Shown here: positions 1 through 64,000 of the stretch, piece by piece
Layout: the number at the start of each line of letters is the position of its first letter
Position numbering within the stretch: position 1 is the stretch's first letter
Source of the DNA: Verrucomicrobiota bacterium
GTDB taxonomy: Bacteria; Verrucomicrobiota; Verrucomicrobiia; Opitutales; UBA953
Length of the DNA: 64,000 nt
Direction of reading: 5' to 3'
NCBI GenBank assembly: GCA_015061905.1
Contig: SUVQ01000001.1
Coordinates: forward strand, 124,001 to 188,000
Made by a program: the position numbers and the translations under genes
Notes under the pieces: model-generated
The model's input: the letters and a program-made list of their open reading frames with translations, nothing else
Database searches by the model: none
Told to the model about the DNA's origin: nothing

Positions 1-160
1 AGGATTCGACGAGGCGTTCCTGTTTTTCTTCCGCAGGCGCGGCTTCGGCGGGAGCCGGTGCTTCCGGCGCGATTTCGGGGGAAACCGGCGTTTCCGGCGC
101 CGGAGAAATGACGGCCTTTTCCTCGGAAAGCGGCGCGTCCTGATTTTGTTCTTCAGACAT
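1..160 (-). CDS. Acidic Pro/Ala/Glu-rich protein, N-terminus only
   Basis: The reading frame starts at ATG 160-158 and runs off the left edge of the window. The visible 53 residues begin MSEEQNQ and are a low-complexity run of Pro, Ala and Glu, with no signal peptide or membrane segment. Such acidic leaders occur on GrpE-like co-chaperones, initiation factors and many others, so no function can be assigned. It points away from the SDR/pyrC pair. The upstream spacer contains an A/G-rich stretch but no clear Shine-Dalgarno sequence. Confidence 0.6.
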   Translation of the reverse strand, partial: MSEEQNQDAPLSEEKAVISPAPETPVSPEIAPEAPAPAEAAPAEEKQERLVES

Positions 161-496
161 TGCTGTTATGTTTACTCTTTTTTGTGGGTTTTATACTTGG
201 CTTCGCTTACTTGCGGAGAATCGCAAAACAGTCGGCAATCATTCTCGGCGTTGTTCGCGTTCCCGCATCGGGAACATCAGTCCGACTCAGACGGAAAAAA
301 TAACTTCGTCAAAAGCGCAACATTCGGCGCGGGCGATTCCGGCAAAGCAGTTCGAAGAACCGTGAAAAGGAAAAATCTCGCTGTATTCAAAAGTAATTTA
401 CACAGCCACTCAACGCTAAAAGTAAAGTTGCCTTCACACGAGCGCAGGACAAGCACACGCGCGCGTGCGGGATGCACCGCGTTCCCGCCGCCCGGG
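161..496. other. Intergenic gap with no convincing gene
   Basis: This 336-base stretch separates the partial gene on the left from the 3' end of the SDR gene. Short open frames here have the Arg/Ser-rich composition of shadow frames and no family resemblance. It holds one copy of the iterated word (258-265) followed closely by a partial opposite copy, giving a small imperfect hairpin. No tRNA or promoter was recognised. Confidence 0.5.
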
Positions 497-1252
497 CTAC
501 CGCGCGCCTTTTTTCCGTTGGAGAAAATAAACGATTCTCGCGACAAGCGCCCGCGGCAAAAATCGGGAAAGCACCTCCAGCGCGCGATACCCGAAGAGCG
601 GAGTCACCAAAAGTTTTCCGGCGAACATTCCGTCCACGGCGACGCGCGCCGTTTCCGCGCTGTTCGCACTCCGCAAATTAAATTTAACGCCCGCCCGCGC
701 GTTAAAACCCGTTTTTACCGGTCCCGGACAAAGCACGGAAATTTTTACACCGGAACGTTCCCGGCGAAGCTCCTCCGCGACGGCTTCGCTGAGACGCGTT
801 ACATAATTTTTCGACGCGTAATAACCCGCCATCAGCGGCCCCGGGAAAAATCCGGCAACCGAAGAAACGTTCATTATATAGCCGCTTCCGCGTTCCCGGA
901 AATCTTTGAGAAAAAGATACATCAGAATATGCAAGGAGCGCACATTCAGATCAATCAGGTTGATTTGTTCGTCGAGCGGCGCGTCGTAAAATTTTCCGAA
1001 AACGCCGAAGCCTGCGTTGTTCACGAGAATGTCGATCCCGTCGTTTTTCGTCATCCCGTAAAGCGCTCGGCAATTTTCCTCGCTTGAAAGATCCAACGCA
1101 ATTATCCGCACGGGAACGCGAAGCTCCGCCGCCGTTTCCTTTAACTTTTCTTCATTACGCGCACAAAGCACAAGCTCGCACCCGCGCGCGGCAAGCACCT
1201 TCGCAATATCGCGCCCGATCCCGCCGGACGCGCCGGTTACCAACGCCTTCAT
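497..1252 (-). CDS. Short-chain dehydrogenase/reductase
   Basis: This 251-residue protein is a classical SDR oxidoreductase with a Rossmann fold. Visible are the N-terminal nucleotide-binding motif TGASGGIG (about residues 6-13), the NNAG motif, the catalytic Ser in NVSSVAG, the YYASK active site (Tyr and Lys) and the PGPVKTGF stretch after it. The substrate cannot be read from sequence; the family includes ketoacyl reductases and many short-chain alcohol dehydrogenases. The start at 1252 is chosen because the fold begins at once (MKALVTGAS) and because it overlaps the pyrC stop by four bases (ATGA), so the two are probably translationally coupled. Confidence 0.85.
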   Translation of the reverse strand: MKALVTGASGGIGRDIAKVLAARGCELVLCARNEEKLKETAAELRVPVRIIALDLSSEENCRALYGMTKNDGIDILVNNAGFGVFGKFYDAPLDEQINLIDLNVRSLHILMYLFLKDFRERGSGYIMNVSSVAGFFPGPLMAGYYASKNYVTRLSEAVAEELRRERSGVKISVLCPGPVKTGFNARAGVKFNLRSANSAETARVAVDGMFAGKLLVTPLFGYRALEVLSRFLPRALVARIVYFLQRKKGAR

Positions 1253-2274
1253 CGCTCGCTTACGCTCCACGCGATTTCTTTTCCGGCAAGCATCGGCACG
1301 ACCCGCGTTTCGGTGTCCGCCCCGCAATAAATTTCGGGAACTCGCTGCGTTTTTTTCTCAAGCACGATTTTTTTCGTCGCTTTCGGCAGGTCGTAAATTC
1401 GCCGTGCGTTTCCGCCGAGAAAATCATTCAGCATACCGAGCGCATTATTTTTTTCGAAAAGCTCCGCGAGTGCCGGCAAGAGCACGGGTGCCGAATAAAT
1501 TCCGCCGAACGCTCCCGCGCATTCTTTTTTCGAAACGGGGTGCGGCGCGGAATCGCTTCCGAACATAATTTTCGCGTTCCCGCCGAAAACCGCTTCACGC
1601 AAAGCCGCGCGATCTTCCGGGCGTTTCACGATCGGTTTGCAGAAAAAGTGCGGATTAAGCAACCCGCCCGCCAAATCATCAAGCGTGTAAAGCAAATGGT
1701 GAAGCGTAACCGTGGCAAAAAGGTTTTCAAATTCGCCGAGCAGCGGGAGTGCCGCCGCCGTCGAAATGTGTTCCATGCAAATTTTTAATTTCGGAAAACG
1801 TATCGCAAGATTTCGATACACGGGCAAAAATTCCGTTTCCCTGTCCATGACAAAACCGTTGCTCTCGCCGTGAACGAGTAGCGGAATTCCGAGTTCTTCC
1901 ATTGCGCGCAACGTTTCCTCCGCTTCTCCGAAATCGCGCACACCGCCGTCGGAATTCGTTGTCGCGCCCGCCGGATAGAGCTTCATCGCAAAAAATCCGG
2001 GAGCGGTTTTCAAGTTTTCAAGTTCTTCGTAAGATTGTTTTTGCAAAAAAACCGTCATCAACGGCGAAAAATCTTTTGCGAACGTTCCCGCCGCGTCCGC
2101 AATGCGGGAACGATACGCGGCCATCGTTTCTGCGGAATTTACCGGCGGAACAAGATTCGGCATCACCACCGCCCCGGCGAAATCTGCCGCGCTGTGCGGA
2201 GCCGCAAGCTTCAGCATCTCGCCGTCACGCAAGTGAAGGTGCATATCCAAAGGACGATCAATTTCAATCTTCAT
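1249..2274 (-). CDS. pyrC: Dihydroorotase
   Basis: Cyclises carbamoyl-aspartate to dihydroorotate, the third step of de novo pyrimidine synthesis in the cytosol. The 341-residue protein matches the type II (E. coli PyrC-like) class in length. Metal ligands are visible: the HLHLRDGEM motif near the N-terminus, the carboxylated Lys in MKLYPAGATTNSDGG, and His residues in HGE, EHIST and TLHHL; the catalytic Asp lies in GSDSAPH. The start MKIEIDRPLD at 2274 puts the HxH motif at the usual place. Its stop overlaps the start of the SDR gene. It is divergent from aroE, with an 88-base shared upstream region. Confidence 0.95.
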   Translation of the reverse strand: MKIEIDRPLDMHLHLRDGEMLKLAAPHSAADFAGAVVMPNLVPPVNSAETMAAYRSRIADAAGTFAKDFSPLMTVFLQKQSYEELENLKTAPGFFAMKLYPAGATTNSDGGVRDFGEAEETLRAMEELGIPLLVHGESNGFVMDRETEFLPVYRNLAIRFPKLKICMEHISTAAALPLLGEFENLFATVTLHHLLYTLDDLAGGLLNPHFFCKPIVKRPEDRAALREAVFGGNAKIMFGSDSAPHPVSKKECAGAFGGIYSAPVLLPALAELFEKNNALGMLNDFLGGNARRIYDLPKATKKIVLEKKTQRVPEIYCGADTETRVVPMLAGKEIAWSVSER

Positions 2275-2362
2275 GGCGGAAATTCTACGCAAGCCGCCCC
2301 ACTGTCGGCAAATGTTTAAGCACCTCGTTGCATTCGCGGAATTTCTGCTTAAAATAAACATC

Positions 2363-3274: not shown

Positions 3275-3371
3275 AGAAAAACCGGAAACGGCGAAATTTA
3301 ACGTGTAGTGCGGATTTTTCTTTCATCAAGCCGAAGAACGTCGCACACTCTTCGCACCGACTCTCTCATCT

Positions 3372-5802
3372 ATGCCTGCATCAAAGTTTTCATGGATTCC
3401 GTTTTACCGCGAACTCGCCGAGGCGTTGCTCAAATATCGCAACACCCGAGAAGAGCTTCTGACCCTGATTTATAAAAATCCTGCTTTTACCCTGCAAACA
3501 AACTATCTGCACCTGCAAGACGGTTCTCCTGCGGTTGACATCGATCCGTTTTCTTTTTTCGGAATTTTTAATCGAGGAATTAAAGCGGACGCACGTAAAA
3601 CAATTTTGCGGGAACTGAAAATATTTTTCGGATTAACGGCAACGCTTCCGGAAGATTTCACAGGGATACCGCTTCTTAACAATCAAAAATCGTTTTATTT
3701 TTTATGGAATACTCCGGAAATCTCAAAATCCTCCTGTGAGGAACTTTGGGAATTTTTCGAATCCGTTCTGAGCGGAAACGTCAACGCGAAACTTTTCGAC
3801 AAACTCGTTGAGCAGAAAGGCATCGGATTCGCCATGATAACAATTGCAATGTTTTGGATTCGTCCCGACGATTTCCTCCCTTTGGACAAACTCACGAGAA
3901 ATTTTCTGGAAAAAGAATACGCCATTCTCGAGGAAATTAAAAATTTCTCAAATTACATTTCTTTCTCTAAATCGCTAAAAACGAAAATGAGAAATAACGA
4001 AATCCCCCAAAATTCCTTTGCAGAAATTTCCCACGATGCCTTCACAAGCAACTCGCTCCCTACGGTTTATGTTTTAATTTCTCCCGAACGCGTTTATTCA
4101 TGTGATTTAAATATTAGCAAGGACGATTGGATAAAAATTCTTAATCACAAAGAATTGGGCTCCGGGCAACGGGATACCGTCCTTAAGTTTTACTCAGAGC
4201 CAAATCATCAAGGTTCGTGTAAAAAAGTCGGCGAAAAGTATGGTATTCATGCCTCAAGTTTAAACGGATTTATGATCGGATTCGGAAAATTCGCACAGAG
4301 AATCCTAAATAGGTTTCGCCTTCGTGATAGTAGCGGAAACAATTATTTCATGATTCCGGTGAAAGAAGGTAAGTATGTCGGAAAACATTTTCAATGGACG
4401 CTTCGCGATGAGCTTGTTGAGGCGATTGAAGAATTGGGGCTTTCCCAAAAGGAGAATAAAGTTATGGAAAATTATTCACAATATATTGAGCTTTTAAAAC
4501 GAGCAAAAAACCTCATTCTCACGGGTGCGCCGGGAACAGGAAAAACTTACTTGGCGAAACAAATCGCGGCAGAAATGGGCGCGGAAACAGCGTTTGTTCA
4601 ATTTCATCCGTCTTTCGATTACACAGACTTCATTGAAGGCTTACGTCCAACGAAAAAATGGCGACGGAAGCATTTCATTTGAACGACGGGACGGCATTTT
4701 TAAAGAATTTTGCCGCAAAGCCCTTCTTGCCAAAACGGTTAGAACGGCAAATATATTCGCCGGGTTAAACGACAACCCGACAATTTGGAAAGTTTCACTG
4801 GAAGGAACGGGAGAAAATCCGACAAGAGCCGATTGCCTTGAAAACGGATGGATTCGTATCGGGTGGAACAGATACGGCGATGTGGAAAACTTTGACGAAT
4901 TCGAAGGTTTCGACGGGAATCCGACGGGAAAATTGATTCTGCGCTCTTTTCAAAATTCGATGAAAATCGGAGATATCGTTTTGTCCTGCTGGTCTTCAAG
5001 AGAAATCGATGCAATCGGAATCGTTACAGGCGATTACGAGTATCGCGAATCCGGCGGCGAATATTCCCGCTACAGAAACGTAAAATGGATCGTAAAAAAC
5101 ATACGGGAAAACATCGTTGACCTCAACGGAGGCAAGCAAATGACACTTTCAACCGTTTACCGTTTGTCGATGTCTATTCAAGACGTTCAAAAAATTGTAG
5201 AAAAACATCTAAAAACACCTACTCCCGAATGCGATGCCCGACCGTTTGTTTTCATCATTGACGAAATCAATCGCGGAGAAATCTCCAAGATTTTCGGAGA
5301 ACTTTTTTATTCTATTGATTCGGGATATCGCGGCGAAAAAGGGTGCGTGAAAACGCAATATCAAAATCTCGTTCCCGAGGGAGATGTTTTTAAAAACGGA
5401 TTTTACGTTCCCGAAAACGTTTATGTCATCGGAACAATGAACGATATTGACCGCAGCGTCGAATGTATGGATTTTGCAATGCGGCGACGGTTTTGTTGGA
5501 AAGAAATTTCACCCGAAAATCGTATTGAAATGCTGAATGCGGAAATCCCGCAATGGAAGAATGAAGCAATACAACGCATGCACGCACTCAACGAAGCGAT
5601 TAAAGCCACGTCTCCTCTCAACGCAGCATATCAAATCGGTCCGGCATACTTCTTAAACCTAAAAAATTGCGACGGCGATTTTTACGCGCTTTGGGAAAAT
5701 TATCTTTCGGGAACGCTAAAAGAATATTTGCGCGGAATTTCCGAGTCCGAAGAAATTTTAGAAAAGCTCAAAGTCTCTTACGATTTGTCGGATGCGACTT
5801 AA
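3372..5802 (+). pseudogene. mcrB: McrB-like AAA+ restriction subunit, split by a frameshift
   Basis: McrB subunits are GTP-driven AAA+ motors that recognise modified DNA and activate the McrC nuclease. Frame 1 (3372-4682) carries an N-terminal region of the McrB-family type (DIDPFSFFGIFNRG, QKGIGF, FWIRPDDFLPLD), a winged-helix-like middle (about 4081-4420) and the Walker A motif GAPGTGKTY, then stops after GLRPTKK. The continuation NGDGSISFERRDGIFKEF is in the +1 frame from about 4659, so one extra A in the A6 run (4653-4658) breaks the gene. Frame 2 carries an inserted PUA/EVE-like domain (about 4768-5195), Walker B FVFIIDEINRGE, and the family motif MNDIDRS ending in AMRRRF. It is more AT-rich than its neighbours and nearly lacks the iterated word. 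The break may be real, phase-variable or an assembly error. Confidence 0.8.
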
Positions 5803-7105
5803 AGACAACAGTCTCCACACGCTTTCTGCGAACGATAAAAGGTATTGTCTGCCGGATTTGGAAGCCATTTCCGGCAGAACAATCGAGAGTTTGATATCCG
5901 AAAATCCCAAGCTTTTGGTGTTCCCGCAAAGCTTTGAAAAATCACAAGACAAACTGAGCGCCAACATGATTTTGACGTTCGAAAGAGCAACGTCAAAAAT
6001 TCGTACAGGAAACCTCATGGGATTTATCGGAATAAGGAAAACTCAAGTGGAAATTTGTTCACGTTTTGAGTCAGACCTCGGAAACGATTTCTTTTTGCAC
6101 TATCTTTTGCAAAAAGTTTTTTCGTTAAATCTTTTTTCGTGGAAACACGAAAGTAAGCAGGATTCAGTCCTCGACATTCTCGCTTTGATTTTTCCTCATT
6201 TTTTGAAAAAGGCCCTGTTCCAGGGAGTCTACAAAGAATATCGCACACAAAAATATAACGATGCGAACATTCGTGGGGGCATTGATTTTGCACGACACAT
6301 TCGGACAAATATTCCGTTCTGCGGAAGAATCGCCTATCGCACACGGGAATATAGTTCTGAAAATGCCCTTTCGCATTTAATTCGGCACACCATAGAGTAT
6401 TTGCGCGGAGATAAAATATTTGCATCACTCCTGCATTTTGACAAAGAAACGGAAGATGCGGTTTCAAAAATTGTGGCGGCGACACCGAGTTTTAATCCGG
6501 CGGAGCAGGAACGCGTTATTGCGAAAAATCTACGTCCGCGAGTTCATCCGCTCTTTTCTGAATATGGGCCGCTTCAAAAGATTTGTATACAGATTTTACG
6601 GCACGATTCATTAAAATACGGAAACACCAAAGACGAAATTTCCGGAGTCCTCTTCGATGGGGCGTGGCTTTGGGAAGAATATTTGGCAACACTTCCTGCG
6701 CTGAAAGACTTTTCACACCCGAAAAACAAAACGGGGGCCGGACGAAAATATATTTTCTCGGATAAGAGGGGTTATTGCTATCCGGATTTCTACAACCATC
6801 TTTGTGTCTTAGATGCGAAATATAAAGACAAGCCTTCCGTCGATTCGTCTCGTCCGGATACGTTTCAAATCATTTCTTATCTCCACATTTTAAATGTCCG
6901 CAAAGGCGGATTTATTTCGCCCTCAACAAGATGTGCTTTCGATTGGGTAACATCAAAACGGGAGCTCTCCGGCATCGGAGGGGCACTCGCTTCTTTTCAC
7001 TTAGAAATCCCACAACACACCGCAGAATACGCTGAATTTTGCCGAGAAATCAAAAGAAGCGAAAACGAACTCTCCCAAAAAATTCAACAATTTCTCGAAA
7101 CGTAA
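5792..7105 (+). CDS. mcrC: McrC-like nuclease subunit
   Basis: McrC is the PD-(D/E)xK nuclease partner of McrB and cuts modified DNA once the motor is loaded. The 437-residue protein has the usual McrC length; the catalytic core is visible near the C-terminus as GYCYPDF, then LDAKYKDK (D..DxK), followed by a helix containing QIISYLHIL. The N-terminal half has the family pattern MGFIGIRK and GGIDFARHI. Its start overlaps the end of mcrB by 11 bases, so the pair forms one operon. It appears intact, which leaves an undamaged nuclease subunit next to a frameshifted motor. It contains no CGGGAACG copy. Confidence 0.85.
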   Translation: MRLKDNSLHTLSANDKRYCLPDLEAISGRTIESLISENPKLLVFPQSFEKSQDKLSANMILTFERATSKIRTGNLMGFIGIRKTQVEICSRFESDLGNDFFLHYLLQKVFSLNLFSWKHESKQDSVLDILALIFPHFLKKALFQGVYKEYRTQKYNDANIRGGIDFARHIRTNIPFCGRIAYRTREYSSENALSHLIRHTIEYLRGDKIFASLLHFDKETEDAVSKIVAATPSFNPAEQERVIAKNLRPRVHPLFSEYGPLQKICIQILRHDSLKYGNTKDEISGVLFDGAWLWEEYLATLPALKDFSHPKNKTGAGRKYIFSDKRGYCYPDFYNHLCVLDAKYKDKPSVDSSRPDTFQIISYLHILNVRKGGFISPSTRCAFDWVTSKRELSGIGGALASFHLEIPQHTAEYAEFCREIKRSENELSQKIQQFLET

Positions 7106-7160
7106 AATTTCTCCCGATAATTCGTTTGGACAAGTTCAGGATTGCGGGGATAATGAATCC

Positions 7161-7913: not shown

Positions 7914-7918
7914 ATGAA

Positions 7919-7956
7919 AAACAAAAAAACGGCATGTCCCTGCCGTTTTTTGTTTT
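7919..7956. terminator. Bidirectional hairpin terminator
   Basis: An inverted repeat AAAACGGCA / TGCCGTTTT with a short loop is flanked by A-rich sequence on the left and T-rich sequence on the right. It sits between two convergent genes (the nucleotidyltransferase and the small lipoprotein), so it can end transcription in both directions. Confidence 0.85.
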
Positions 7957-7957
7957 T

Positions 7958-8203
7958 TCAAAAATCTTCGCGAAAGCCGTCGTTCCAGCGCGGACCGTCG
8001 CGATTGGCGCGGTTGTTTTCTTTTTCGAGTGCGTCGCCGTAGTCTTCCCAAGTCGTAATCTCGCCTTTGAGCACGCCTGTAACGGCGGGTTTGTTAAATC
8101 CCGGATCCTCGGGATCTTCCGCCGACGTGCAGGAAGCGAGCGTTCCCGCGGCGAAAATCATCGCGGGAACGAGGAGAATTTTTCTGTGTAATGAAAATTT
8201 CAT
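7958..8203 (-). CDS. Small predicted lipoprotein
   Basis: An 81-residue protein with a basic N-terminus, a hydrophobic stretch and a lipobox (LASC), so it should be lipid-anchored in the envelope after cleavage before Cys-25. The mature part is short, polar and rich in Asp, Glu, Asn and Arg; no domain is recognised. The start codon shares one base with the stop of the upstream phosphohexomutase (TAATG), so the two are probably co-translated. Confidence 0.75.
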   Translation of the reverse strand: MKFSLHRKILLVPAMIFAAGTLASCTSAEDPEDPGFNKPAVTGVLKGEITTWEDYGDALEKENNRANRDGPRWNDGFREDF

Positions 8204-10137: not shown

Positions 10138-10218
10138 AACAGCCCAAAAGTAAGGTAATTCCTGCGGGAACGCGATTTTTTTCTCCTTTGCCAAAATAAA
10201 TTTTAGTTCCTATTATTT

Positions 10219-20928: not shown

Positions 20929-21436
20929 TTTCAAAAAAAAGAAACCACGGGAAACACCAAACCACACGGAAATTTGTTTTTTACCGCAAAGGAACAAAAA
21001 TAAAAGAAAGTATTTAAAGGAGAACAGGCGTCCCGCCTGTTTTTTACTTCTTCCACACCCCGAAGAGACGCAGGAAATTAGCCCGGGGCAGGCGTGCAAA
21101 GCAAAATCGTCCTCAATACAAGGTTCAAAAACCTCGCGCAAAAACGCTAAGACGCAAAGTTTTTTAAGCAATTCTCACGGAGGCACGGAGACGCGGAGTT
21201 TTTTTTGTGGTTAATTCTTTGCTGCAGCCGAAACAGGCATCCGCAGATTTCCTCTTTAAAAAAACTTCGCGGCTTGGCGGCTTCGCACGAAAAGCATTCG
21301 CGAAAATTCGTGTCTATTCGTGGTTTCTTTTTTTTAACTTTGCGGCTTGGCGGCTTCGCGCGAAAAAAACGTTCCCGCAACCGAAGCCGCGGGAACGCAA
21401 AATAATTCACATTAAGAAAAAATCATTCCGAACATT
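20929..21436. repeat. Dispersed non-coding repeat cluster 2, with hemC terminator
   Basis: This 508-base spacer holds the hemC terminator at 21023-21047 and then a mosaic of repeated units: GCTAAGACGCAAAGTTTTTT, CTCACGGAGGCACGGAGACG, AACTTCGCGGCTTGGCGGCTTC and CGTGTCTATTCGTGGTTTC. It ends with an inverted pair of the iterated word (21369-21398). No gene is seen. Confidence 0.7.
21023..21047 (+). terminator. hemC: Hairpin terminator of hemC
   Basis: ACAGGCG and CGCCTGT form a seven-base stem with a three-base loop, followed by TTTTTT, about 95 bases after the hemC stop. Confidence 0.75.
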
Positions 21437-24281: not shown

Positions 24282-24328
24282 AAAGCGTTCCCGGGAAAAA
24301 TCCTCGGGAACGCTTTTTGTTTTTTCGG
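24282..24328. terminator. rpoC: Bidirectional terminator built from two iterated words
   Basis: AAAAGCGTTCCCG and CGGGAACGCTTTT form a 13-base stem around a short loop, with T-rich sequence on the plus side and A-rich sequence on the other. It lies just after the rpoC stop and can end both rpoC and the convergent DUF1015 transcript. A second weaker pair (CCCGCGTTC / GAACGCGGG) lies at about 24186-24218. Confidence 0.85.
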
Positions 24329-24340
24329 AACAAATCCGAA

Positions 24341-28546
<4,206 letters not shown>

Positions 28547-28636: not shown

Positions 28637-31600
28637 TCAGAGCTGCTTCGTGGAGTCGCCGAGCTGAACGTTCAGCGCGAGCGACTGGAGTTCCTTCATC
28701 AAAACATTGAACGATTGCGGCGTTCCCGCAGCAAGCGAGTTGTCGCCCTTGACAATCTGCTCGTAAATCTTCGTGCGCCCGACGGTGTCGTCGGACTTCA
28801 CCGTCAGCATTTCCTGCAGAACGTGAGCCGCGCCGTAAGCTTCAAGAGCCCAAACTTCCATTTCCCCGAGACGCTGTCCGCCGTATTGCGCCTTACCGCC
28901 CAACGGCTGTTGCGTAATCAGAGAGTAGGGACCGACCGCGCGGGCGTGAATCTTGTCCGCGACAAGGTGGTTCAGCTTCATCATGTAAATGACGCCGACG
29001 ACAACGTCCTGGTCGAAAGCTTCGCCCGTGAGACCGTTGTAAAGAAGCGTTTTTCCGCTGTGCGGCAATTCCGCTTTGTCAAGATAGCTACGGATGGTGG
29101 CTTCGGGAACGCCGTCAAAAATCGGAGTTGAAACCTTGATTCCCGCCGGGAGGCCGTGGTCCGCCGCCGGAGCAAGTGCCATTTCATCAAATCCGCCGGT
29201 TTGAATTTGGAGACCGAGCTTTTTGCACGCCCACCCCAAGTGGGTTTCAAGAACCTGCCCGACGTTCATTCGGGAAGGAACGCCCAACGGATTCAAGCAA
29301 ATATCGACCGGAGTTCCGTCCGGAAGATACGGCATATCTTCGACGGGAACGATACGAGCGACAACGCCCTTGTTCCCGTGGCGACCCGCCATTTTGTCTC
29401 CAACCTGAATTTTACGTTTAACGGCAATGTAAACCTTAACGTTCTTAATCGTTCCCGAATCATCTTCGCCTGCGGCGATGGAAGCTGCCTTGCGGTCGCG
29501 TTCCTCTTCAAGATCCGTGAATTTACGGAGAAAATCTTCAACGATGCGCATAATTTTGATACGCACCGGAGATTGCGGCATGTCGATATATTTCGGGACG
29601 GAAGCGAGTTTGCGAAGCAACGTCTTCGTGATTTTACGCCCCGCCGGAATGATGACTTCCTTCGTGTCGCTGTTAATGACATCAAGCGGAATTTTTTCGC
29701 CGAGGAGAATATTGGAAAGCGATTCCGTGAGCTCGTCGCGAAGCTTATCCGTCTGCGTGCGGAAGTTTTCGTTCACGCTCTTCATCATGCGGCGCTGGTC
29801 GGAATGCGAAAGCTTTTCGTTTTCCTTATCCGTGCGGGTGGAAACCTTCACGTCCATGATAATACCATACGTTCCCGAAGGCACCTTAAGCGAAGAATCC
29901 TTAACATCCGCCGCTTTTTCACCGAAGATTGCGCGGAGAAGTTTTTCTTCCGGAGCAAGTTCCGTTTCGGATTTCGGCGTGATTTTGCCGACGAGAATAT
30001 CGCCCGGATGAACTTCGGCACCGATGCGAATAACACCGTCTCGACCAAGGTTTTTCAAGGCTTCTTCCCCGACATTCGGGATATCTCGCGTGATTTCTTC
30101 CGGTCCGAGCTTGGTATCGCGAGCCGTAACTTCAAATTCTTCAATATGAATGGACGTGAACACGTCGTCTTTAATCACCCGCTCACTGAGAAGAATAGCG
30201 TCTTCAAAGTTGTAGCCGTTCCACGGCATGAACGCGACGAGAACGTTGCGCCCGAGCGCGAGTTCTCCGCCTTCCGTGGACGCACCGTCTGCGATACACT
30301 GACCTTTTTTAACCTTGTCGCCCTTTTTGACGGACGGACGTTGATTAAAGCAGGTAGTCGCATTCGAGCGAAGGAATTTACGAAGTTCGTAAACTTGAGC
30401 ATCCGAAGCTCCCGGATTTTTGCCGTCCTTGGTTACGATAATCTTACGCGCATCAACCGAGGCGACGATCCCGTCCTGCTTCGCGAGAATGACGGTTTTG
30501 GAGTCTTCCGCAATACGCTTTTCCAACCCGGTTCCGACAAACGGAGCCTGCGGCTGCAACAGCGGAACACCTTGGCGTTGCATGTTCGAGCCCATGAGCG
30601 CGCGGTTCGCGTCGTCGTGTTCGAGGAACGGAATCAAACCGGCAGCAACGGAAACGACCTGCTTCGGCGAAACGTCCATCAAATCCACTTCTTCGGGTTC
30701 GATGACGAGAACGTCATCGCGGAAACGCACCGTAACTTTGCCGACAAGATTGCCCTTGTCGTCCACTTCGGAGTTTGCCTGAGCAACTTTGTAATTTTCT
30801 TCTTCGTCGGCGGTGAAATATTTGACTTCATCCGTTACCTTGCCCTTTTTGACAATACGATACGGAGCTTCAATAAAGCCGAACTCGTTCACGCGGGCGT
30901 AGGTCGAAAGCGAATTGATAAGACCGATATTCGGTCCTTCCGGTGTTTCAATCGGGCAGATACGACCATAGTGGGACGGATGAACGTCTCGAACTTCGAA
31001 TCCCGCGCGATCGCGGTTCAACCCTCCCGGCCCGAGAGCGGACAAGCGGCGCTTGTGCGTAAGCTCGGAGAGCGGATTGATCTGATCCATAAACTGGGAA
31101 AGCTGGCTTCGCGCAAAGAAGTCGCGAACGACCGTCGAAAGTGCTTTCGGGTTGATAAGTTTACCCGGAGTTACGGAATCGACGCTTTGGTCATACATGG
31201 ACATGCGGTCTCGGACATGGCGTTCCGTGCGCGCAAGCCCGACGCGGCATTGATTCGCGAGGAGTTCGCCGACATTACGGACGCGGCGCGCGCCGAGATG
31301 GTCGATATCGTCAACAACTCCGTCCCCGCGCTTCAGATTGCAAAGATACTTCGTTGCCTGAACGAGGTCTTCCGTCTGAATCGTGCGCGTGGAAATCGGC
31401 GTGTTAAGCTTAAGCTTCTGATTGATTTTGTAACGACCGACCCCGCCGAGATCGTAGCGCTTGGCATCAAGGAAAAGACGTTTGAGCAGGGAACGAGCAT
31501 TCGGGATCGTCGGCGGTTCGCCCGGACGAAGCACTTTATAGATATCCTTAAGCGCTTCCTCTTCGTTACGGGTCGGATCTTTTTTGAGAGCACGGATAAT

Positions 31601-32443
31601 CGCGCCGTCGTCCACGGAAGTGTCAATGACGCGAACGGTGCCGATTCCGATTTTTTCGATTTCGCGGAGAATGGTCTTTGTAATCGGTTCAAATGCGCGA
31701 GCCAAAACCTTACCCTTTTCGGAGTCGATAATGTCCTCAACGAGAACGTATTTGGACACGCCGTCCATTTCGATCGCTTTTTTGATTTTAAGCGTCTCGA
31801 ATTTATAGAACAGCTCCATGATTTGCGCATCCGTGCTGAAGCCCCACGCACGAAGAAGCGTCGTGATGAGAAATTTACGACGACGGCGGCGGCGGTCAAG
31901 GTAGACGTAGAGAAGATCGTTTTGGTCAAACTGAACTTCGAGCCACGTTCCGCGATCCGGAATAATGCGAAACGCATAAAGCGTCTTCCCGCTGGAGTGG
32001 TCGCTTTGTTCAAAGCAAATTCCCGGAGAACGGTGAAGCTGGCTCACGATAACGCGTTCCGCGCCGTTGATGATGAAAGAGCCGCGCTCCGTGATTAAGG
32101 GCATTTCGCCCATGAAAATTTCTTCTTCCTTAACGTTGTCGCCCTCGACAAGACGGAGCTTGAGGAACAACGAAACGGAATATGTAATTCCTTCACGAAT
32201 GCATTCAAGCTCCGTGTATTTCGGTCCCTTCAGGTCATAGCTGACATACTCCAGACGGCAACGGCTGTCATAGCTCTCAATCGGAAAAACTTCCTTAAAT
32301 ACGGCTTCAAGCCCCGCATCCTTGCGCTTGGCGGGATCAAGATCGCGCTGAAGAAATTCCACATAGGAATTAATCTGGTTTTCAATGAGATTGGGCGGGG
32401 GGATAACCTCGCGCAATGTTCCAAAATTCTGACGCTCAGACAT
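28637..32443 (-). CDS. rpoB: RNA polymerase beta subunit
   Basis: The 1268-residue beta subunit. The rifampicin-binding region [20 protein letters not shown] followed by RLSALGPGG retains the Asp, His and Ser associated with sensitivity. Also visible are [31 protein letters not shown] and the C-terminal GRHGNKGV and [20 protein letters not shown] motifs. It follows rplL after a 235-base spacer containing a strong hairpin, and precedes rpoC. Iterated-word copies are less dense here than in neighbouring metabolic genes, as expected if protein constraint limits where the word can sit. Confidence 0.98.
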
Positions 32444-36017: not shown

Positions 36018-37226
36018 TTACTTGATGACTTCAACGATCTTACCGGAACCGATCGTGCGACCGCCTTCGCGGATAGCGAAGCGCTGACCTTTTTCCATAG
36101 CGACCGGCTTGCCAAGTTCGATTTCGATTTCAACGTTGTCGCCCGGCATAACCATTTCCGTTCCCGCGGGGAGACGGACGATACCGGTAACGTCAGCCGT
36201 GCCGAAGAAGAACTGCGGACGATAGTTGGTGAAGAACGGCGTGTGACGACCGCCTTCGTCCTTCGTGAGGACGTAAATTTGAGCCTTAGCCTGCGTGTGC
36301 GGGTGGATGGAACCCGGTTTCGCGAGAACCTGTCCGCGTTGGACTTGGTCTTTTTCGATACCGCGGAGGAGGACGCCGACGTTGTCGCCCGCGAGACCTT
36401 CTTCAAGGTTCTTACGGAACATTTCGACACCCGTAACCGTGGATTTCTGCGTTTCCGCGAGACCGACGATTTCGATTTCTTCGCCGACCTTAACTTTACC
36501 GCGTTCGATACGACCCGTAGCAACCGTTCCGCGACCCGTGATGGAGAACACGTCTTCGACAGACATCATGAACGGAAGGTCAACAGCGCGTTCCGGTTCC
36601 GGAATTTCCGTGTCGAGAACGTCCATGAGTTCGGAAACAGCCTTGTAGCCCGGTCCTTCAGCATTGTTAGCGGCGGCGTCTTCGAGAGCCTGCGTAGCGG
36701 AACCGCGAACGATCTTGGCATTGTCTCCGTCAAATTCATACTTGTTGAGGAGGTCACGGATTTCCATTTCGACGAGTTCGAGCAGATCCGGGTCATCGAG
36801 AAGGTCGCACTTGTTCAACCAAACGACGATTTTCGGAACGCCGACCTGACGAGCGAGAAGGATGTGTTCGCGCGTCTGCGGCATAGGTCCGTCAGCAGCG
36901 GAAACGACGAGGATAGCACCGTCCATCTGGGCGGCACCGGTGATCATGTTCTTAACGAAGTCCGCGTGACCCGGGCAGTCAACGTGAGCGTAGTGGCGCT
37001 TGTCGGATTCATATTCAACGTGCGCAGCAGCAATCGTAACAGTCTTGGTCGCGTCACGAACCGTTCCGCCCTTAGCGATATCTGCATAAGCCTTGACGAC
37101 AGCAAGATTCTTGCAAGCCTGAACAGCGAGGATAGCGGCAGTCGTGGTCGTTTTACCGTGGTCGATGTGACCGATGGTGCCGACATTGACGTGCGGTTTC
37201 GTACGAACGAAGGTTTCTTTAGCCAT
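36018..37226 (-). CDS. tuf: Elongation factor Tu
   Basis: Delivers aminoacyl-tRNA to the ribosome. The 402-residue protein has G1 GHIDHGKT, G3 [12 protein letters not shown]4 NKCD and G5 GSA, followed by normal domains 2 and 3. The switch I region differs from the textbook form: [20 protein letters not shown] replaces the usual APEEKARGITINTSHVEY, keeping the Mg-linked Thr (TVTI) but losing the RGITI consensus. I recall a similar sequence in planctomycete EF-Tu. NKCD has Cys where Val or Met is common. The gene lies between two tRNA genes. Confidence 0.98.
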
Positions 37227-37495: not shown

Positions 37496-37553
37496 CAAAA
37501 ACGCGTTCCCGCGAGGAAGCCGGATTCGCTTCGCGGGAACGCGTTTTTGCGGG
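37496..37553 (-). terminator. rho: Rho-gene terminator built from two iterated words
   Basis: ACGCGTTCCCGCG and CGCGGGAACGCGT form a long stem, extended by AAAA / TTTT and enclosing a short GC-rich inner arm. It lies directly after the rho stop on the minus strand and is followed by TTTTTG. Confidence 0.85.
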
Positions 37554-42029: not shown

Positions 42030-42362
42030 AGCGGAAAAACGTAATCGGCGGGAACGCTCAGGTCAAACGCGAAGGCATTTTACTTTTTCTTCATAATACG
42101 ACTTTTCATGCAAAACTGTGCTATTTACAGTCGTTCACAATTTATTCACGACTTATTCTCGAAAGACATCCCGCCATTTCTTCTCATTTCCCTATGGCAA
42201 AAACGGAATACAACAATAAAAACTGCATAGATTCACTACTTGATTGATAGAAAATATTTGACGCATAGCACGCCGTCGAAGAAAATTCCACTGAAATCGG
42301 GTCTAATTAGGATGAGCCGATTCGTCCGCCCCGATTTTTTACCCCTAAAAAAAGGCACACAC
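42030..42362. other. Divergent intergenic region with leader hairpin
   Basis: This AT-rich gap separates prfB from the PEP-CTERM gene. It contains one iterated word near prfB, a TTGATTG/TTGACG-rich stretch (about 42240-42265) that could hold a promoter without a clear -10 box, and a hairpin AAATCGGG / CCCGATTT (42294-42337) followed by T residues, 26 bases before the ATG. That hairpin resembles an attenuator or a terminator of upstream transcription. Confidence 0.45.
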
Positions 42363-43101: not shown

Positions 43102-43188
43102 CGCGTTCCCGCGGTATTTTCTGCGGGAACGCGTTATCTTATTACGTTCCCGCTGTAGAAATTTCTCGCGGGCGCGGCGGGAACGCGT
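43102..43188. repeat. Four iterated words in two inverted pairs
   Basis: CGCGTTCCCGC (43102-43112) pairs with GCGGGAACGCG (43123-43133); a second pair ACGTTCCCGC / GCGGGAACGCGT spans about 43144-43188. The first hairpin lies 23 bases after the PEP-CTERM gene stop and probably ends its transcript, although the following T tract is poor. Confidence 0.7.
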
Positions 43189-53616: not shown

Positions 53617-54000
53617 TTACGCAGTGTAGCCGAGGAGCTGAAGGAAGAAGCGGACGCGTTCGCGGTCGTCTCCCTGAAGTTCAAGCTTACCGTCAACTTC
53701 AGCTCCACCGCAGGCGAATTTTTGTTTGAGAGATTTGAGCAAGTCCGAGCGTTGCTCGGCGGGAAGTGCCGCAATTCCCGGACCTTCGAGTATCGTTACG
53801 GTTTTTCCGCTACGCCCGGATTTTTCGATACGCAGATGGACTTTTCCGAGTTTTGCGGGAACGCTCGGCTTGGAGTTTGCGGAGCGGCGTTTTTGCGGCG
53901 GTTCCGCCTGCGGAAGATTTTCGATGTGAAGTGAGCCGAACGCGTCGTTGATGGAAGAGACGCCGGAAGTTTTTCCGTCGGTGGAAATTTTCTTAGCCAT
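53617..54000 (-). CDS. SUI1/eIF1-family translation factor (YciH-like)
   Basis: A 127-residue protein with a disordered N-terminus and a C-terminal SUI1 domain: VHLRIEKSGRSGKTVTILEG, then a short helix and LKQKFACGGAEVDGKLELQGD, the hallmark GG..xDG..ELQGD pattern. Bacterial members resemble eIF1 and may affect start-site selection. The start MAKKISTDGK at 54000 is 14 bases after the obgE stop, so it is in the obgE - SUI1 - RlmI operon. Confidence 0.88.
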   Translation of the reverse strand: MAKKISTDGKTSGVSSINDAFGSLHIENLPQAEPPQKRRSANSKPSVPAKLGKVHLRIEKSGRSGKTVTILEGPGIAALPAEQRSDLLKSLKQKFACGGAEVDGKLELQGDDRERVRFFLQLLGYTA

Positions 54001-54014
54001 AATTTTTTTTCCGA

Positions 54015-55013
<999 letters not shown>

Positions 55014-55026
55014 TTAACGATTAAAT

Positions 55027-55081
55027 TTTAACTTTTAACGATTAAGCCGGATTTTACTTAACCGCTAAAAGTTAAGAGTTA
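55027..55081. other. AT-rich inverted repeat at the yidC/obgE junction
   Basis: TTAACTTTTAACGATTAA and TTAACCGCTAAAAGTTAA pair with a few mismatches across the end of yidC and the spacer to obgE. No T tract follows in either direction. The text resembles the TTAGAAGTTAAA stem behind yebC. Confidence 0.4.
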
Positions 55082-56955
55082 ATACCTGTAACGCGTCCTT
55101 TGCCGCGACCTTTTTTCTTGGTCGGCGGAATGATTTCCACGTTCCCGGATTTTGCGTTCCCGCCCTTTTCGTCGTCGCGGGCGCGGCGCACGAGCCAAGT
55201 TTGGAACATGGTGAAGATGTTCTGAAGTGTCCAGTAAAGCGTGAGAGCGGAAGGCATCGTGTAGCAAATGATGGGGAAAATCGCCATCATTGCGTAGAAC
55301 ATGTTTTTCTGCCCGGGTTGCGCATTCGGCATCGGTGTCATTTTCATGTTCAGGAACATGGTTGCGCCCATGAGAATCGGGAGGATGTGAATCTGTGCGC
55401 CGATGAACGGAATGCGCCAGTCTTCAAGCCCGGGAATGACGTCCGGCATCGAAAGGTCGGGAATCCACAGGAACGGCTGCAGGCGCAGTTCCGCGCAGGT
55501 TTGGAACGTGCAATACATCGCGAAGAAAATCGGGATCTGAATCAGCACCGGGAAGCAGCCCGCGAGCGGGTTGATTTTGTTGTCCCGATACAACTTCATC
55601 ATTTCCTGCTGCATTTTCTGCGGGTTGTCTTTGTAGCGTTCCCGAATGTCCTGCATCGGCTTGGAAAACTTCTGCATTTTTTTCGCAGAACGCTGTTGCG
55701 CCATCGTGAGCGGCCACGTAATGCCTTTGACGATGAGTGTCATCACGACAATTACCCAACCCCAGGACCATGCGTTGGCGGGAATCAGCTCGTGAATCCA
55801 ATTCATCACTGCGACGAGAATTTTGCAGAGCCAATCAATGCTGATGAAGCCGAAAAGGCTCGTAAACTGCACCACGAGATCCGCATCTTCAATCAAATCC
55901 GCGCTCTGCAAATCCGCGAAACGCGTGTATTCCTTCGGTCCGACGTAGTAAAGCGTTTCCAAATTCAGGGAACGAAGCGCGGGAAGCTTCACCCGCGCGA
56001 ATCCGACGACGGACAAGTCCGTTTTGTTGTCCGCATCTTCCGCGGGAACGAGCTTTTCCGGGAAAACGGCGAGCTCGGAAATCAGCGGGCGCACATCCGC
56101 CTGCGGGAACGCGAGAATGTTTGCAAAATACTGATTCGTCGTCGCCACCCATTGGAACGGCTCGCCCGCTTCGGCGGGAGCAACATACGAAGCATACGCC
56201 GGATGCGCACCGAGCCCGAGGAAACCGCCGCTGGCTTTGAAATGCCCGGTGTCGATTTTGTCGTAGCTGTCGCCGTTAAACCACGAAGCATTCAGGAAAA
56301 GATTTGCCGTATCGCCGTTGGTCGGCGGAAGCATTCCCGTGGAAAGGTAAAGATCCGTCGCGGGAACGGAATCCGCACCGGCAACCGGAGCCAGCTTGAT
56401 ATTGTGGCGAACCAAATACGGATCTGCCGCACCGCGCCCTTCGTCATCAAGCGAAACCGTATAAACGCGGCGCACGGTTTTTTGTGAATCAGCGCCGACC
56501 AGCGTTACCGTGCGGGTTTTTGCCGCATCGTCCGTCACATCGCTTTCCACGGAAAAAACGATATTCCACGGTGCAGGAGCCGCACCGAGAGTTGCCGGAG
56601 CCCCGGCAAGCGTCAGCGCGGGAACGCTCGATTTGTCATTAAAAACAACCGGATTGCGATCTTCCTGAGATTGCGGGAAATCCTTGAGCTCAACGCTCTC
56701 GATCGCGCCGCCGAACGAGCTCAGGCGCAATGCGATTTTTCCGTTTTCGAGCGTAAAAATTTTCTTTTCTCCGGAAAAAACCGGAGCCGGTTTTGCGGGA
56801 ACGGCGGCAGGCTGAGCAGGCGCAATCGCCGTCGAAGTAGCGGGCGTAGCTACAGGCGCGGGCGCGGGTTGCGGAGCGTTTTTCGCGTTAAAAAACATCA
56901 GCCCGACCGCCAATCCGATCAGCAAAATTCCGATAAACGTGCTTTTCTTGTCCAT
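55072..56955 (-). CDS. yidC: Membrane protein insertase YidC
   Basis: Inserts proteins in the inner membrane alone or with SecYEG. The 627-residue protein has the Gram-negative layout: an N-terminal helix (about residues 7-22), an Ala/Pro-rich stretch, a periplasmic P1 beta domain (about 60-385) and the conserved five-helix core with WGWVIVVMTLIVKGITWPL, MQDIRERYKDNPQKMQQE and NPLAGCFPVLIQIPIFFAMY. It is somewhat longer than E. coli YidC (548), mainly in P1. It starts the yidC - obgE - SUI1 - rlmI-like run. Confidence 0.96.
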   Translation of the reverse strand: MDKKSTFIGILLIGLAVGLMFFNAKNAPQPAPAPVATPATSTAIAPAQPAAVPAKPAPVFSGEKKIFTLENGKIALRLSSFGGAIESVELKDFPQSQEDRNPVVFNDKSSVPALTLAGAPATLGAAPAPWNIVFSVESDVTDDAAKTRTVTLVGADSQKTVRRVYTVSLDDEGRGAADPYLVRHNIKLAPVAGADSVPATDLYLSTGMLPPTNGDTANLFLNASWFNGDSYDKIDTGHFKASGGFLGLGAHPAYASYVAPAEAGEPFQWVATTNQYFANILAFPQADVRPLISELAVFPEKLVPAEDADNKTDLSVVGFARVKLPALRSLNLETLYYVGPKEYTRFADLQSADLIEDADLVVQFTSLFGFISIDWLCKILVAVMNWIHELIPANAWSWGWVIVVMTLIVKGITWPLTMAQQRSAKKMQKFSKPMQDIRERYKDNPQKMQQEMMKLYRDNKINPLAGCFPVLIQIPIFFAMYCTFQTCAELRLQPFLWIPDLSMPDVIPGLEDWRIPFIGAQIHILPILMGATMFLNMKMTPMPNAQPGQKNMFYAMMAIFPIICYTMPSALTLYWTLQNIFTMFQTWLVRRARDDEKGGNAKSGNVEIIPPTKKKGRGKGRVTGINS

Positions 56956-57135
56956 GAAAATATCCTAAATGGGACAATAAAAGCACAAAATATGCGCGGG
57001 GTAAATTGTATTTTATCTCGCAAAAGTGCGAGTGCGCGCCGTTTCGCGCTCGCGCGGGAACGCGAAGGGGAAAGCCGGAGATCGGGCGTTAAGAGCCGGG
57101 AACGGGAAGCGGCGGCACCGGTTCTCTGAACGCGG

Positions 57136-62136: not shown

Positions 62137-62190
62137 AAAAAAAACGTTCCCGCGCGGCGAAAGCCGTTTTTAGCGGGAACGTTTTTTTTT
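62137..62190 (-). terminator. queA: queA terminator built from two iterated words
   Basis: AACGTTCCCGC (62143-62153) and GCGGGAACGTT (62173-62183) form the stem, extended by an A run on one side and a T run on the other, with a small CGGC/GCCG inner arm. It lies directly after the queA stop. Confidence 0.88.
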
Positions 62191-62198
62191 CAAAAAAT

Positions 62199-63302
62199 TT
62201 ACAGAATCAGCATGGCGTCGCCGTAGCTATAAAAGCGGTAGCGTTCCCGCACGGCTTCAGCGTAAAGTTCTTTGAGCCACGCGATTCCTGCGGTTGAATC
62301 CGGCGTAAGAAACGACGAAACCAGACACATCAGCGTCGATTTCGGCAGGTGGAAATTCGTAATCATCATCTCTGCCGACAAAATTTTCGACGGCGGATAA
62401 ATGTAAATTCCGGCAGTTGCGGCAACACTTCCCGACGGCGGAATCAGCGGGTCGCCCGCCGCCCGGCGACGCGTAAAATCCTCCATCGCGCGCAAGCTGG
62501 TTGTGCCGACGGCGAGCCGCGGCGCGGCAAGATCTTCCCGCTCCAGTTCGCAACGCGTTCCCGCCGGAATCGTGTAAAATTCCTTGTGAATGGAATGCCC
62601 TTCAATCGTCGCTGATTTTATGGGTTGAAATGTGCCGAGCCCGACATGGAGCGTCAGGTCAAACATCCGCATTCCTTTTTCCTGCAATTTTTTCAAAAGC
62701 GCGTCCGAGAAATGTAAGCCGGCGGTCGGCGCGGCGGCGGCTACGGGTTCTTCGCGGCGCGCGTAAACCGTCTGATAACGTTCTTTGTCCAGCGCGGAAA
62801 AATCCTGTCCCTGCGGGCGGGAGCGCTCGATGTAAGGCGGAAGCGGGAGTTTTCCGATTTCGGCGGCAACGTCGAGCACACTTTTCCCGCCGGGCATTTC
62901 AAATTCGACAAGATATTCGCCGCCGCCCTCTTCGCAAATTTCCTTGTCAATAACGCGTGCCCGATAAACGCCGGGAACACCGAAAGTTCCCGATGCGGCT
63001 TTCTTTCCCGGCTTGAGCAGGCACCACCAGCGCGTAGGAATTTCGCCCGGACGCAAAAGCAGGCATTCGACTTTTCCGCCCGTTTCGCGCGTTCCCGCAA
63101 GGCGTGCCTGCAAAACGGCGGCATCGTTTCGGAAAAGCCGCGTTCCCGCAGGAATCAGATTCGGCAAATCCGCAAAAATATGATGAGAAAACGTTCCCGT
63201 GCGGAGATTTACAACGAGGAGTCTTGATTCTTCGCGCCGCGCCGCCGGTGTCTGCGCAATGAGCTCCGGCGGAAGCTCGTAATTGAAAAGTTCAACGTCC
63301 AT
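62199..63302 (-). CDS. queA: S-adenosylmethionine:tRNA ribosyltransferase-isomerase
   Basis: Transfers the ribosyl part of SAM to preQ1-modified tRNA to make epoxyqueuosine. The 367-residue protein has the family start FNYELPPELIAQTPAARREESRLLV, the GKLPLPPYI motif, AAPTAGLHFS and LTLHVGLGTFQPI, the GTTSLRAME stretch and the C-terminal LITNFHLP-type motif (here MITNFHLPKSTLMCLVSSF). It is six bases from the ftsZ stop, so the two are probably co-transcribed. Confidence 0.96.
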   Translation of the reverse strand: MDVELFNYELPPELIAQTPAARREESRLLVVNLRTGTFSHHIFADLPNLIPAGTRLFRNDAAVLQARLAGTRETGGKVECLLLRPGEIPTRWWCLLKPGKKAASGTFGVPGVYRARVIDKEICEEGGGEYLVEFEMPGGKSVLDVAAEIGKLPLPPYIERSRPQGQDFSALDKERYQTVYARREEPVAAAAPTAGLHFSDALLKKLQEKGMRMFDLTLHVGLGTFQPIKSATIEGHSIHKEFYTIPAGTRCELEREDLAAPRLAVGTTSLRAMEDFTRRRAAGDPLIPPSGSVAATAGIYIYPPSKILSAEMMITNFHLPKSTLMCLVSSFLTPDSTAGIAWLKELYAEAVRERYRFYSYGDAMLIL

Positions 63303-63308
63303 GGCGCA

Positions 63309-64000
63309 TTAGTTTTTACGCAAACTCCCGAATTCTTTTTTCTTTTTTGCGAGCGTTTTATCGAGATTGATTTGCTTGCGGATATACGTCGGCGTATCCA
63401 AATCTTTTCCTTCAAAAAGGCGACTGCGCGTGTCCGCAAATCCGCCGCGGCGGTCATCGAGCCCGAGCCCGGGTTCTTCACGATCAAAATCGTTCCCGTC
63501 CGCATCGTCCGAATTTAGCACGAGCACGCCTCCGGGCATGGCGTCCGAAGCCTCTTTTTTCGGTTTTTTGCGGACAACGCGTGAAGCTTCGCGAATCCCC
63601 GCCGCGCCGAAAACGCAAATTTCCAGGCGATCGCCGAGTGCCGGATTCACGGCATAGCTCGGAAGCGTCCGCAAATCGCCGCCGAAGCGGTTTTTCACGC
63701 GTTGCGCCGTTTCGCTGACAAAGGCGAGTTGAGGCTCCATGCCCGTTTCGATGTGAATCGCCAAGGTCTCCGCCGTTCCCGCCACGGAGGTTCGCGTTTT
63801 TAAAAGCGGGCAACGGAAAAGCTCCGTCAACGCGTCTTCCTGCGCGTTCCCGCCGCTTCCGAAGCCTACGGAAAACAGCGTGCGCGTTCCCACCGCCGGA
63901 AAAAGATTGCGAAACGCCGCCAAGTCCACGCGCATGCGCCCGGTCGTATTCAAAAGCATTCGGCAACAGGAAGAAACGCCGCTTTCAATCCAGCGATCCG
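63309..64000 (-). CDS. ftsZ: Cell division protein FtsZ, C-terminal part
   Basis: The gene enters from the right edge; only about the last 230 codons are present and the nucleotide-binding half is outside the window. Recognisable are the strand RMRVDLAAFRNLF (equivalent of INVDFADVKTV), SVGFGSGGNAQEDALTELFRCPLL (equivalent of GxGxASGxNRAxxA..A..SPLL), the GDRLEICVFGA strand and the C-terminal peptide LDTPTYIRKQ, which in FtsZ binds FtsA and other partners. A charged, poorly conserved linker (about 63380-63560) precedes that peptide. Divergence of the middle motif is notable; a distant FtsZ paralogue is possible. Confidence 0.78.
   Translation of the reverse strand, partial: DRWIESGVSSCCRMLLNTTGRMRVDLAAFRNLFPAVGTRTLFSVGFGSGGNAQEDALTELFRCPLLKTRTSVAGTAETLAIHIETGMEPQLAFVSETAQRVKNRFGGDLRTLPSYAVNPALGDRLEICVFGAAGIREASRVVRKKPKKEASDAMPGGVLVLNSDDADGNDFDREEPGLGLDDRRGGFADTRSRLFEGKDLDTPTYIRKQINLDKTLAKKKKEFGSLRKN

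Follow-up and report, generated by a model that had tools for sequence, protein, structure and literature searches.

A densely iterated non-palindromic octamer as a candidate DNA uptake sequence in one genus of Opitutales (Verrucomicrobiota)

What keeps one short, asymmetric DNA word in place once every 318 bases throughout a bacterial genome? The question is raised by a 64,000-nucleotide stretch (hereafter the window) of a Verrucomicrobiota bacterium (GCA_015061905.1), positions 124001-188000 of contig 10 in a genome of 2,081,963 bases and 17 contigs (G000). The window carries 201 copies of the octamer CGGGAACG, 87 on the plus strand and 114 on the minus strand. An earlier description of the window, made from its letters alone (the sequence-only reading), had reported the word at very high density on both strands, likened it to the uptake sequences of Neisseriaceae and Pasteurellaceae, and named a recombination or modification site as alternatives. 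Its by-eye counts of the 7-mer GGGAACG/CGTTCCC, 15 in positions 1-3300 and 15 in positions 7140-10200, are exact. On the evidence described below, CGGGAACG is probably an independently evolved DNA uptake sequence of a gut genus of Opitutales, kept in place by biased uptake; we regard the two alternatives named earlier as less likely.

The word is as dense throughout the genome as in the window. The whole assembly holds 3,233 copies on the plus strand and 3,317 on the minus strand (6,550 in total, or ~3,150 per Mb), whereas the same word read backwards, which served as a control, occurs 85 times. Local properties were analysed in a 445-kb sample of G000, consisting of the window and 20 further stretches, and this sample contains 1,354 copies of CGGGAACG compared with ~49 expected from an order-3 Markov model with the word masked. 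The reverse complement of CGGGAACG is CGTTCCCG, and the word is therefore non-palindromic. Among the 1,354 copies, the flanking position -1 is G (0.60) or A (0.21), position -2 is C in 0.37 and A in just 0.12, and position +8 is C (0.52) or T (0.21); there is no preference outside positions -2 to +8. The preferred extended form is R-CGGGAACG-C, so that the consensus RCGGGAACGC proposed from the window holds, as a preference. We rejected a GNRA-like hairpin (GCG-GGAA-CGC): although positions -1 and +8 depend on each other (chi-square 37.9), the number of A-T pairs is close to expectation (65 observed, 61.1 expected).

The RpoB of G000 is 99% identical to that of a goat-rectum MAG, Opitutales bacterium isolate RGIG2967, which points to a gut member of the Opitutales. 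Among the genomes searched, the word is characteristic of a single genus of this order (Opitutales, Verrucomicrobiota). A first survey covered 57 genomes, comprising 8 of the genus (G000 to G007), 29 of the family and 20 of the order. Six of the eight genus members are dense, with 5,192-6,550 copies of CGGGAACG. The other two are sparse, with 1,362 copies in G001 (backward control, 145) and 546 in G006 (backward control, 95). In the remaining 49 genomes the word reaches at most ~1.7 times the backward control. A draw of 387 genomes from across the phylum gave a similar picture for GCGGGAACGC: three genus members hold 1,586-2,235 copies, and the other 384 genomes hold no more than 111, which in some of them is several-fold above a small backward control. 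Two candidate dialects in sister genera, both of which had looked enriched, were rejected as products of giant repetitive genes. Of the 62 copies of CGGGTACG in G008, 61 share a strand and fall in two neighbouring 20-kb stretches. The copies of GGCACGCTC in G011 also share a strand and are confined to one stretch, nearly all of them inside a single giant frame. These giant frames are observations in their own right: the two adjoining G008 stretches (L102 and L122; G008:C2:1-40000) are each a one-strand open frame of 6,666 codons, and the repetitive frame of G011 (L107, 2444-19999) spans at least 5,852 codons.

Copies lie in genes and in spacers and in both orientations, as the sequence-only reading had stated, at 2.86 per kb of coding sequence and 4.46 per kb of spacer, and they use all six combinations of frame and strand. 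The gene set consists of 382 greedy longest-frame genes of the sample, a crude call that includes some false frames. These genes hold 1,142 words, compared with 103 after pooled synonymous shuffling and 122 after shuffling within genes; codon use thus reproduces roughly one copy in ten. Both objections foreseen by the sequence-only reading, an ordinary frequency elsewhere in the genome and an effect of codon use, therefore fail. Each of the six settings admits CGGGAACG through one tripeptide class, and the word occupies 1,142 of the 1,539 sites so permitted (74%). In 30 of 30 comparisons, measured against background codon use, the codon that makes the word is favoured over the one synonymous codon set against it; the ln odds run from 1.3 to 5.5 (zero counts replaced by 0.5), with a median of 3.5. 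Jointly these comparisons span all eight positions of the word. Since synonymous departures are disfavoured at every one of them, a one-base mutational bias cannot yield CGGGAACG.

The tripeptides that permit the word are themselves over-represented in G000 relative to amino-acid expectation (RER, 3.8; RSR, 3.7; xVP, 3.3; xGT, 3.0; xGN, 2.8; xFP, 1.6). The corresponding ratios are 0.65-1.4 in the pooled sister genera g2-g4 and 1.1-2.6 in the sparse G001 and G006. The six dense genomes fill 0.56-0.76 of their permitted sites, G001 0.22, G006 0.15 and the sister genera 0.04; since G002 is rich in G+C, antisense frames may be among those counted for it here. The surplus of these peptides is most naturally read as an effect of the word, whose maintenance appears to have altered proteins.

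Comparison of G000 with its relatives indicates that the word is maintained. In aligned DNA, CGGGAACG is conserved at 0.85 of sites in G007 (n = 166), 0.71 in G004 (220), 0.68 in G005 (140) and 0.69 in G002 (39), compared with 0.64, 0.38, 0.31 and 0.34, respectively, for anagram 8-mers used as controls. In G003 the values are 0.22 (27 words) and 0.12. In the sparse genomes the word is conserved at 0.15 (G001; 79 words) and 0.11 (G006; 46), with anagrams at 0.19 and 0.15. When differences between G000 and G007 were polarised with an outgroup, the word was lost at 14 of 162 sites, as opposed to 525 of 1,885 for composition-matched 8-mers (p = 8e-9) and 5,920 of 29,164 for others. Loss of the word between close relatives is thus ~3 times rarer than loss of matched 8-mers.

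In the sparse genomes the excess of perfect words is low, and that of one-mismatch forms is slightly below the dense genomes. Per kb, perfect words exceed expectation by 2.5-3.5 in dense genomes, 0.46 in G001 and 0.24 in G006; in g2, g3 and g4 the figure is -0.02 to 0.06. The excess of one-mismatch forms is 1.32-2.62 per kb in dense genomes, 1.24 in both G001 and G006, and -0.20 to 0.14 in g2, g3 and g4. As ratios, one-mismatch forms stand at 1.77-2.49 times expectation in dense genomes and 0.89-1.10 times in sister genera. Of 150 anagram controls, 1-5 reach the one-mismatch ratio of the word in each genus genome (2-5 in dense ones), compared with 77, 86 and 44 in g2, g3 and g4, respectively. 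Given that one-letter relics are nearly undiminished in G001 and G006 and perfect words are few, these two genomes carry a signature of decay, as if maintenance of the word had been lost and its relics had remained. Two words in these genomes, CGGGGACG in G001 and CGAGAACG in G006, could reflect a shift of dialect; many neighbouring words rise together with them, however, so that decay is the better explanation. G006 also contains a repeat (CCACCAACCC / CCACTAACC type) that is dispersed in both orientations, with more than 100 copies in 171 kb (for example in L289).

The simplest account of this distribution is that the word was lost on the branch leading to G001 and G006. In an rpoB tree, the dense but long-branched G003 groups with G001 and G006 (split 96/94), and the pairing of G001 with G006 is not strong (88/72); in a tree of the FimT-like pseudopilin described below, that pairing has a split of 96/93. 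Less simple accounts would be that G003 gained the word independently or that the dialect shifted. Two comparisons contribute little here. Words of G001 fall on G000 word sites in 12 of 15 cases, which we dropped as evidence of ancestry because G000 already fills ~74% of its permitted sites and the coincidence proves little. None of 8 G001 words aligned to G006 is shared, which neither supports nor refutes decay. Separately, the RpoB of G003 (L242; G003:C12:36840-40553) is strongly diverged for a member of the same genus (branch length 0.84).

Where two words lie close together, they tend to take one particular relative orientation. Of the word pairs 16-24 bases apart, 34 of 50 are oriented CGTTCCCG..CGGGAACG. 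Extending the range to 12-40 bases gives 56 pairs in this orientation, 30 of them intergenic, and 23 of these 30 follow the 3' end of a gene at a distance of at most 120 bases; the three other orientations together give 75 pairs, 15 intergenic, of which 10 lie past a gene end. A TTTT run is found no more than 12 bases away from 26 of the 30 intergenic inverted pairs, compared with 41 of 156 single intergenic words, and at 22 of 28 gene ends near intergenic pairs the run lies in the downstream direction of the gene. These features suggest that inverted pairs form terminator-like hairpins. Seven such pairs in the window are listed in Table 1, two of them lacking a T4 run.

The word appears to be scarcer in some genes and regions than in others. 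As had been remarked from the window, the conserved genes rpoC, rpoB and tuf are poorer in the word than the window as a whole (3.14 per kb; Table 1), and so is an McrBC-like restriction region. In the sample, the longest gaps between words measure 4.7 kb (L180) and 4.5 kb (L175). By Pfam, the L175 gap holds a polysaccharide pyruvyl transferase, a Wzy-like polymerase and glycosyltransferases, with SLFN_AlbA_2 and AAA ATPase genes adjoining; a gap region in L176 holds glycosyltransferases as well. The L180 gap contains proline-biosynthesis-like enzymes next to a short frame with no Pfam match, which we read as a transposase remnant. The word-poor McrBC, polysaccharide and glycosyltransferase regions may be acquired DNA, an interpretation that L180 fits poorly.

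From these patterns we infer sequence-specific uptake, a receptor, and uptake bias as the driving force. A surface receptor, probably a part of a type IV pilus or its minor pilins, would bind DNA bearing the word; the bound DNA would be pulled in, and ComEC would pass one strand into the cell, where it would recombine. Fragments with the word would enter more often, alleles with the word would replace alleles without it, and the word would build up at every place where the function of proteins and RNAs tolerates it, until it occupied the majority of permitted sites. Such molecular drive would explain the pattern without any benefit from the individual copy. For the uptake signal sequence (USS) of Pasteurellaceae, work cited by PMC7811141 argues that drive alone is sufficient.

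Components that such a pathway would use are encoded in the genus. The search for competence and pilus genes that the sequence-only reading had suggested recovered ComEC-like proteins, PilB- and PilT-like ATPases and pseudopilins. ComEC (PF03772) is matched in all eight genus genomes and in 52 of the 57 searched, and the ComEC-like protein of G000 clears the cut-off for the ComEC N-terminal domain. Two PilB-like ATPases and one PilT-like ATPase are clustered in all eight genus genomes, with PilC/GspF adjoining in G000. An operon of four pseudopilins was read in G003 and G006; its FimT-like member, a label of our own for a protein with no NCBIfam match, is present in all eight. A third GspE-like ATPase occurs in the sparse genomes (G001:C66, L290; G006:C75, L289), next to the pseudopilin operon in G006; none was detected in any of the six dense ones. 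In half-kilobase bins (139 compared; median identity to G004, 86%), 12 bins reach 94%; six of these form one run at window positions 54000-57000, where G005 is 79-91% identical, and two others fall in tuf, which is conserved anyway. The 97% block at this place (Table 1) suggests recombination between species, whatever the route.

The likeness to uptake sequences first suggested from the window stands in several respects, namely an asymmetric word on both strands, its apparent scarcity in constrained genes and in polysaccharide and restriction regions, terminator-like pairs, the one-mismatch excess, maintenance in relatives, relics, and ComEC and pilus genes. No receptor was found among the genes searched for. 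Several observations weigh against an uptake sequence. The uptake preference and the receptor are themselves reached by inference. ComEC, the pilus ATPases and the FimT-like pseudopilin are present in G001 and G006 too, and hence do not tell dense genomes from sparse ones; moreover, 44 of the genomes with ComEC lie outside the genus and are word-free, so that possession of the machinery is not enough to predict it. The ComEC-like protein of G000 scores 56.6 bits against an NCBIfam full-length cut-off of 190. In all five countable sequences of the eight FimT-like pseudopilins, acidic residues outnumber basic ones, which counts against this protein as the DNA receptor. A direct test for gain of the word is weak, with 2 of 129 one-mismatch sites converted compared with 2 of 390 controls, too few to be informative. 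A few anagram controls surpass the word in one-mismatch excess, and the longest gap, L180, consists mostly of proline-biosynthesis-like genes, unlike recent imports. Finally, the methyltransferase search that bears on the main rival below was confined to PF01555 and PF00145.

Known uptake sequences provide the closest comparison. Like CGGGAACG, the DNA uptake sequence (DUS) of Neisseriaceae is a short asymmetric word with thousands of copies. In PMC3630211 the highest DUS density reported is that of kingDUS in Kingella oralis (5,918 copies, 2.4 Mb), close to the 6,550 copies of CGGGAACG in 2.08 Mb. DUS words also occur in terminators (PMC13020248), as CGGGAACG pairs do in terminator-like hairpins. 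By eye, however, CGGGAACG is neither the same as nor a dialect of GCCGTCTGAA (core CTG) or AAGTGCGGT; it is unrelated to the GCCGTCTGAA type, belongs to another phylum and is known here from genome sequence only. Unlike for DUS, no dialects were found in the sister genera, and one genus of those searched carries the word. The USS likewise has an asymmetric core and is present in terminators (PMC13020248); it is also scarce in constrained and newly acquired sequence (PMC7811141), a trait that CGGGAACG may share. It differs in that the Haemophilus consensus has AT-rich blocks over 29 bp (PMC1939737), with nothing comparable past +8 in CGGGAACG, and in density, H. influenzae 86-028NP having 1,014 USS10 per Mb (PMC7811141) compared with ~3,150 per Mb here. 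As far as these texts go, uptake sequences are described for Neisseriaceae and Pasteurellaceae only (PMC3630211, PMC1939737, PMC13020248, PMC7811141), and a 2026 survey of terminators names them in those two families (PMC13020248). Among the papers listed in our literature search, judged by title and opening of the abstract, none reports an uptake sequence for Verrucomicrobiota, although a report elsewhere is possible; a text search for CGGGAACG itself returned a sole match, on a fuel-cell topic.

The main rival to an uptake sequence, which we consider unlikely, is that a methyltransferase modifies the word and methylation-dependent repair creates and keeps it, as proposed by Elhai for HIP1 (GCGATCGC) of cyanobacteria (PMC4390886). 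HIP1 is also a very frequent 8-mer of unproven function that is low or replaced in some relatives (PMC4390886), the densities are of the same order, CGGGAACG is confined to one lineage, and N6/N4 methyltransferases (PF01555) are encoded in all eight genus genomes. However, HIP1 is palindromic and tied to specific methyltransferases, whereas CGGGAACG is non-palindromic, with no enzyme of the two families searched tied to it. The m5C methyltransferase family PF00145 is matched in six of the eight genomes, with no match in the dense G002 and G005 and a fragment of 49 positions only in G007. The sole PF01555 match spans 882 bases in G007 and 687 bases in G004, so that, by length, the two probably belong to different families; PF01555 is also present in both sparse genomes. 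Neither are the one-base departures concentrated on the two outermost bases, as they are reported to be in HIP1, position 1 being among the least varied. The G007 methyltransferase gene (L191; G007:C7:19470-20351) lies between blocks syntenic with window positions 40500-42100 and 43100 onward; PF01555 is unmatched there on the contig of the window, and matches of similar span occur in G005, G002 and G006.

Also unlikely is that, instead of uptake, a hypothetical sequence-directed conversion rewrites near-matches into CGGGAACG genome-wide, fills three quarters of the permitted sites and changes proteins in doing so; it would have been switched off in two species, leaving fossils. We likewise consider unlikely a genome-wide site, selected copy by copy, for a cellular DNA-binding protein with a nucleoid, Chi-like or segregation role. 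A short core, weak flanks and eight constrained positions would fit many DNA-reading proteins, and Chi, too, is a short asymmetric over-represented word. Chi is skewed by replication strand, but the orientation of CGGGAACG shows no significant relation to GC skew (Spearman 0.27, p = 0.24, 21 stretches, a comparison of low power), and both the filling of 74% of permitted sites and the peptide excess seem hard to square with a merely sufficient number of sites. An origin of the word in base composition, or in the use of codons, dicodons or amino acids, is scarcely credible: word-permitting tripeptides are too common in dense genomes and would alone raise the count, but the Markov model and the codon shuffles fall far short, spacers are denser than genes, all six settings are used, and in the sister genera both the word and the surplus of peptides are absent. 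A mobile or dispersed repeat such as a REP or MITE element can be dismissed with equal confidence as the general source, because although a dispersed repeat with words at ~51490-52270 of the window matches other places in the genome, no flank is conserved outside positions -2 to +8 over the 1,354 copies, and 1,137 of these lie within predicted genes in all six settings.

That repeat is ~0.36 kb long and present in two neighbouring copies with word pairs, and parts of it match many places in the genome and in relatives at ~75-92% identity. Elsewhere in the window, positions 37567-39867 (minus strand) encode a rho-like protein whose 766 residues include a long extension at the N terminus; a second Rho-like protein, ~48% identical, is also found in the genome and in several relatives.

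Table 1 Features of the window that bear on the distribution of CGGGAACG
Feature	Position	Strand	Remarks
CGGGAACG copies, whole window	1..64000	both	0-11 copies per 2-kb bin
McrBC-like restriction region (Pfam: AAA_5, McrBC)	3372..7105	+	0.80/kb; word-free gaps 3225-5369 and 5707-7411
Inverted pair CGTTCCCG..CGGGAACG, spacer	8141..8171		T run a few bases off, + side
Inverted word pair, spacer	21370..21397		T run on - side, toward direction of minus-strand gene
Inverted word pair, bidirectional terminator-like	24286..24312		T runs on both sides; 29 bases past rpoC 3' end
rpoC	24341..28546	-	Word-poor, 1.90/kb
rpoB	28637..32443	-	1.31/kb; contains most of 2.6-kb word-free gap 29869-32497
tuf (EF-Tu signature)	36018..37226	-	One word, 0.83/kb
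Inverted word pair past 3' end of rho-like gene	37504..37541		T runs on both sides
Inverted word pair, spacer	43104..43131		No T4 run on either side
Second inverted word pair, same spacer as 43104..43131	43145..43185		No T4 run on either side
Block 97% identical to G004	53617..56985		3.4 kb; G004 median over compared bins 86%
Inverted word pair	62145..62181		Runs of at least 8 T on both sides

If CGGGAACG is indeed an uptake sequence, an unrelated word in Verrucomicrobiota would represent an independent origin, and would make it possible to study why uptake bias arises. The genus forms a natural series for this purpose, with six dense members, two in which maintenance has apparently been lost and relics persist in both DNA and peptides, and word-free sister genera. 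The near saturation of permitted sites would then be a direct measure of the strength of the drive and of its cost in protein changes.

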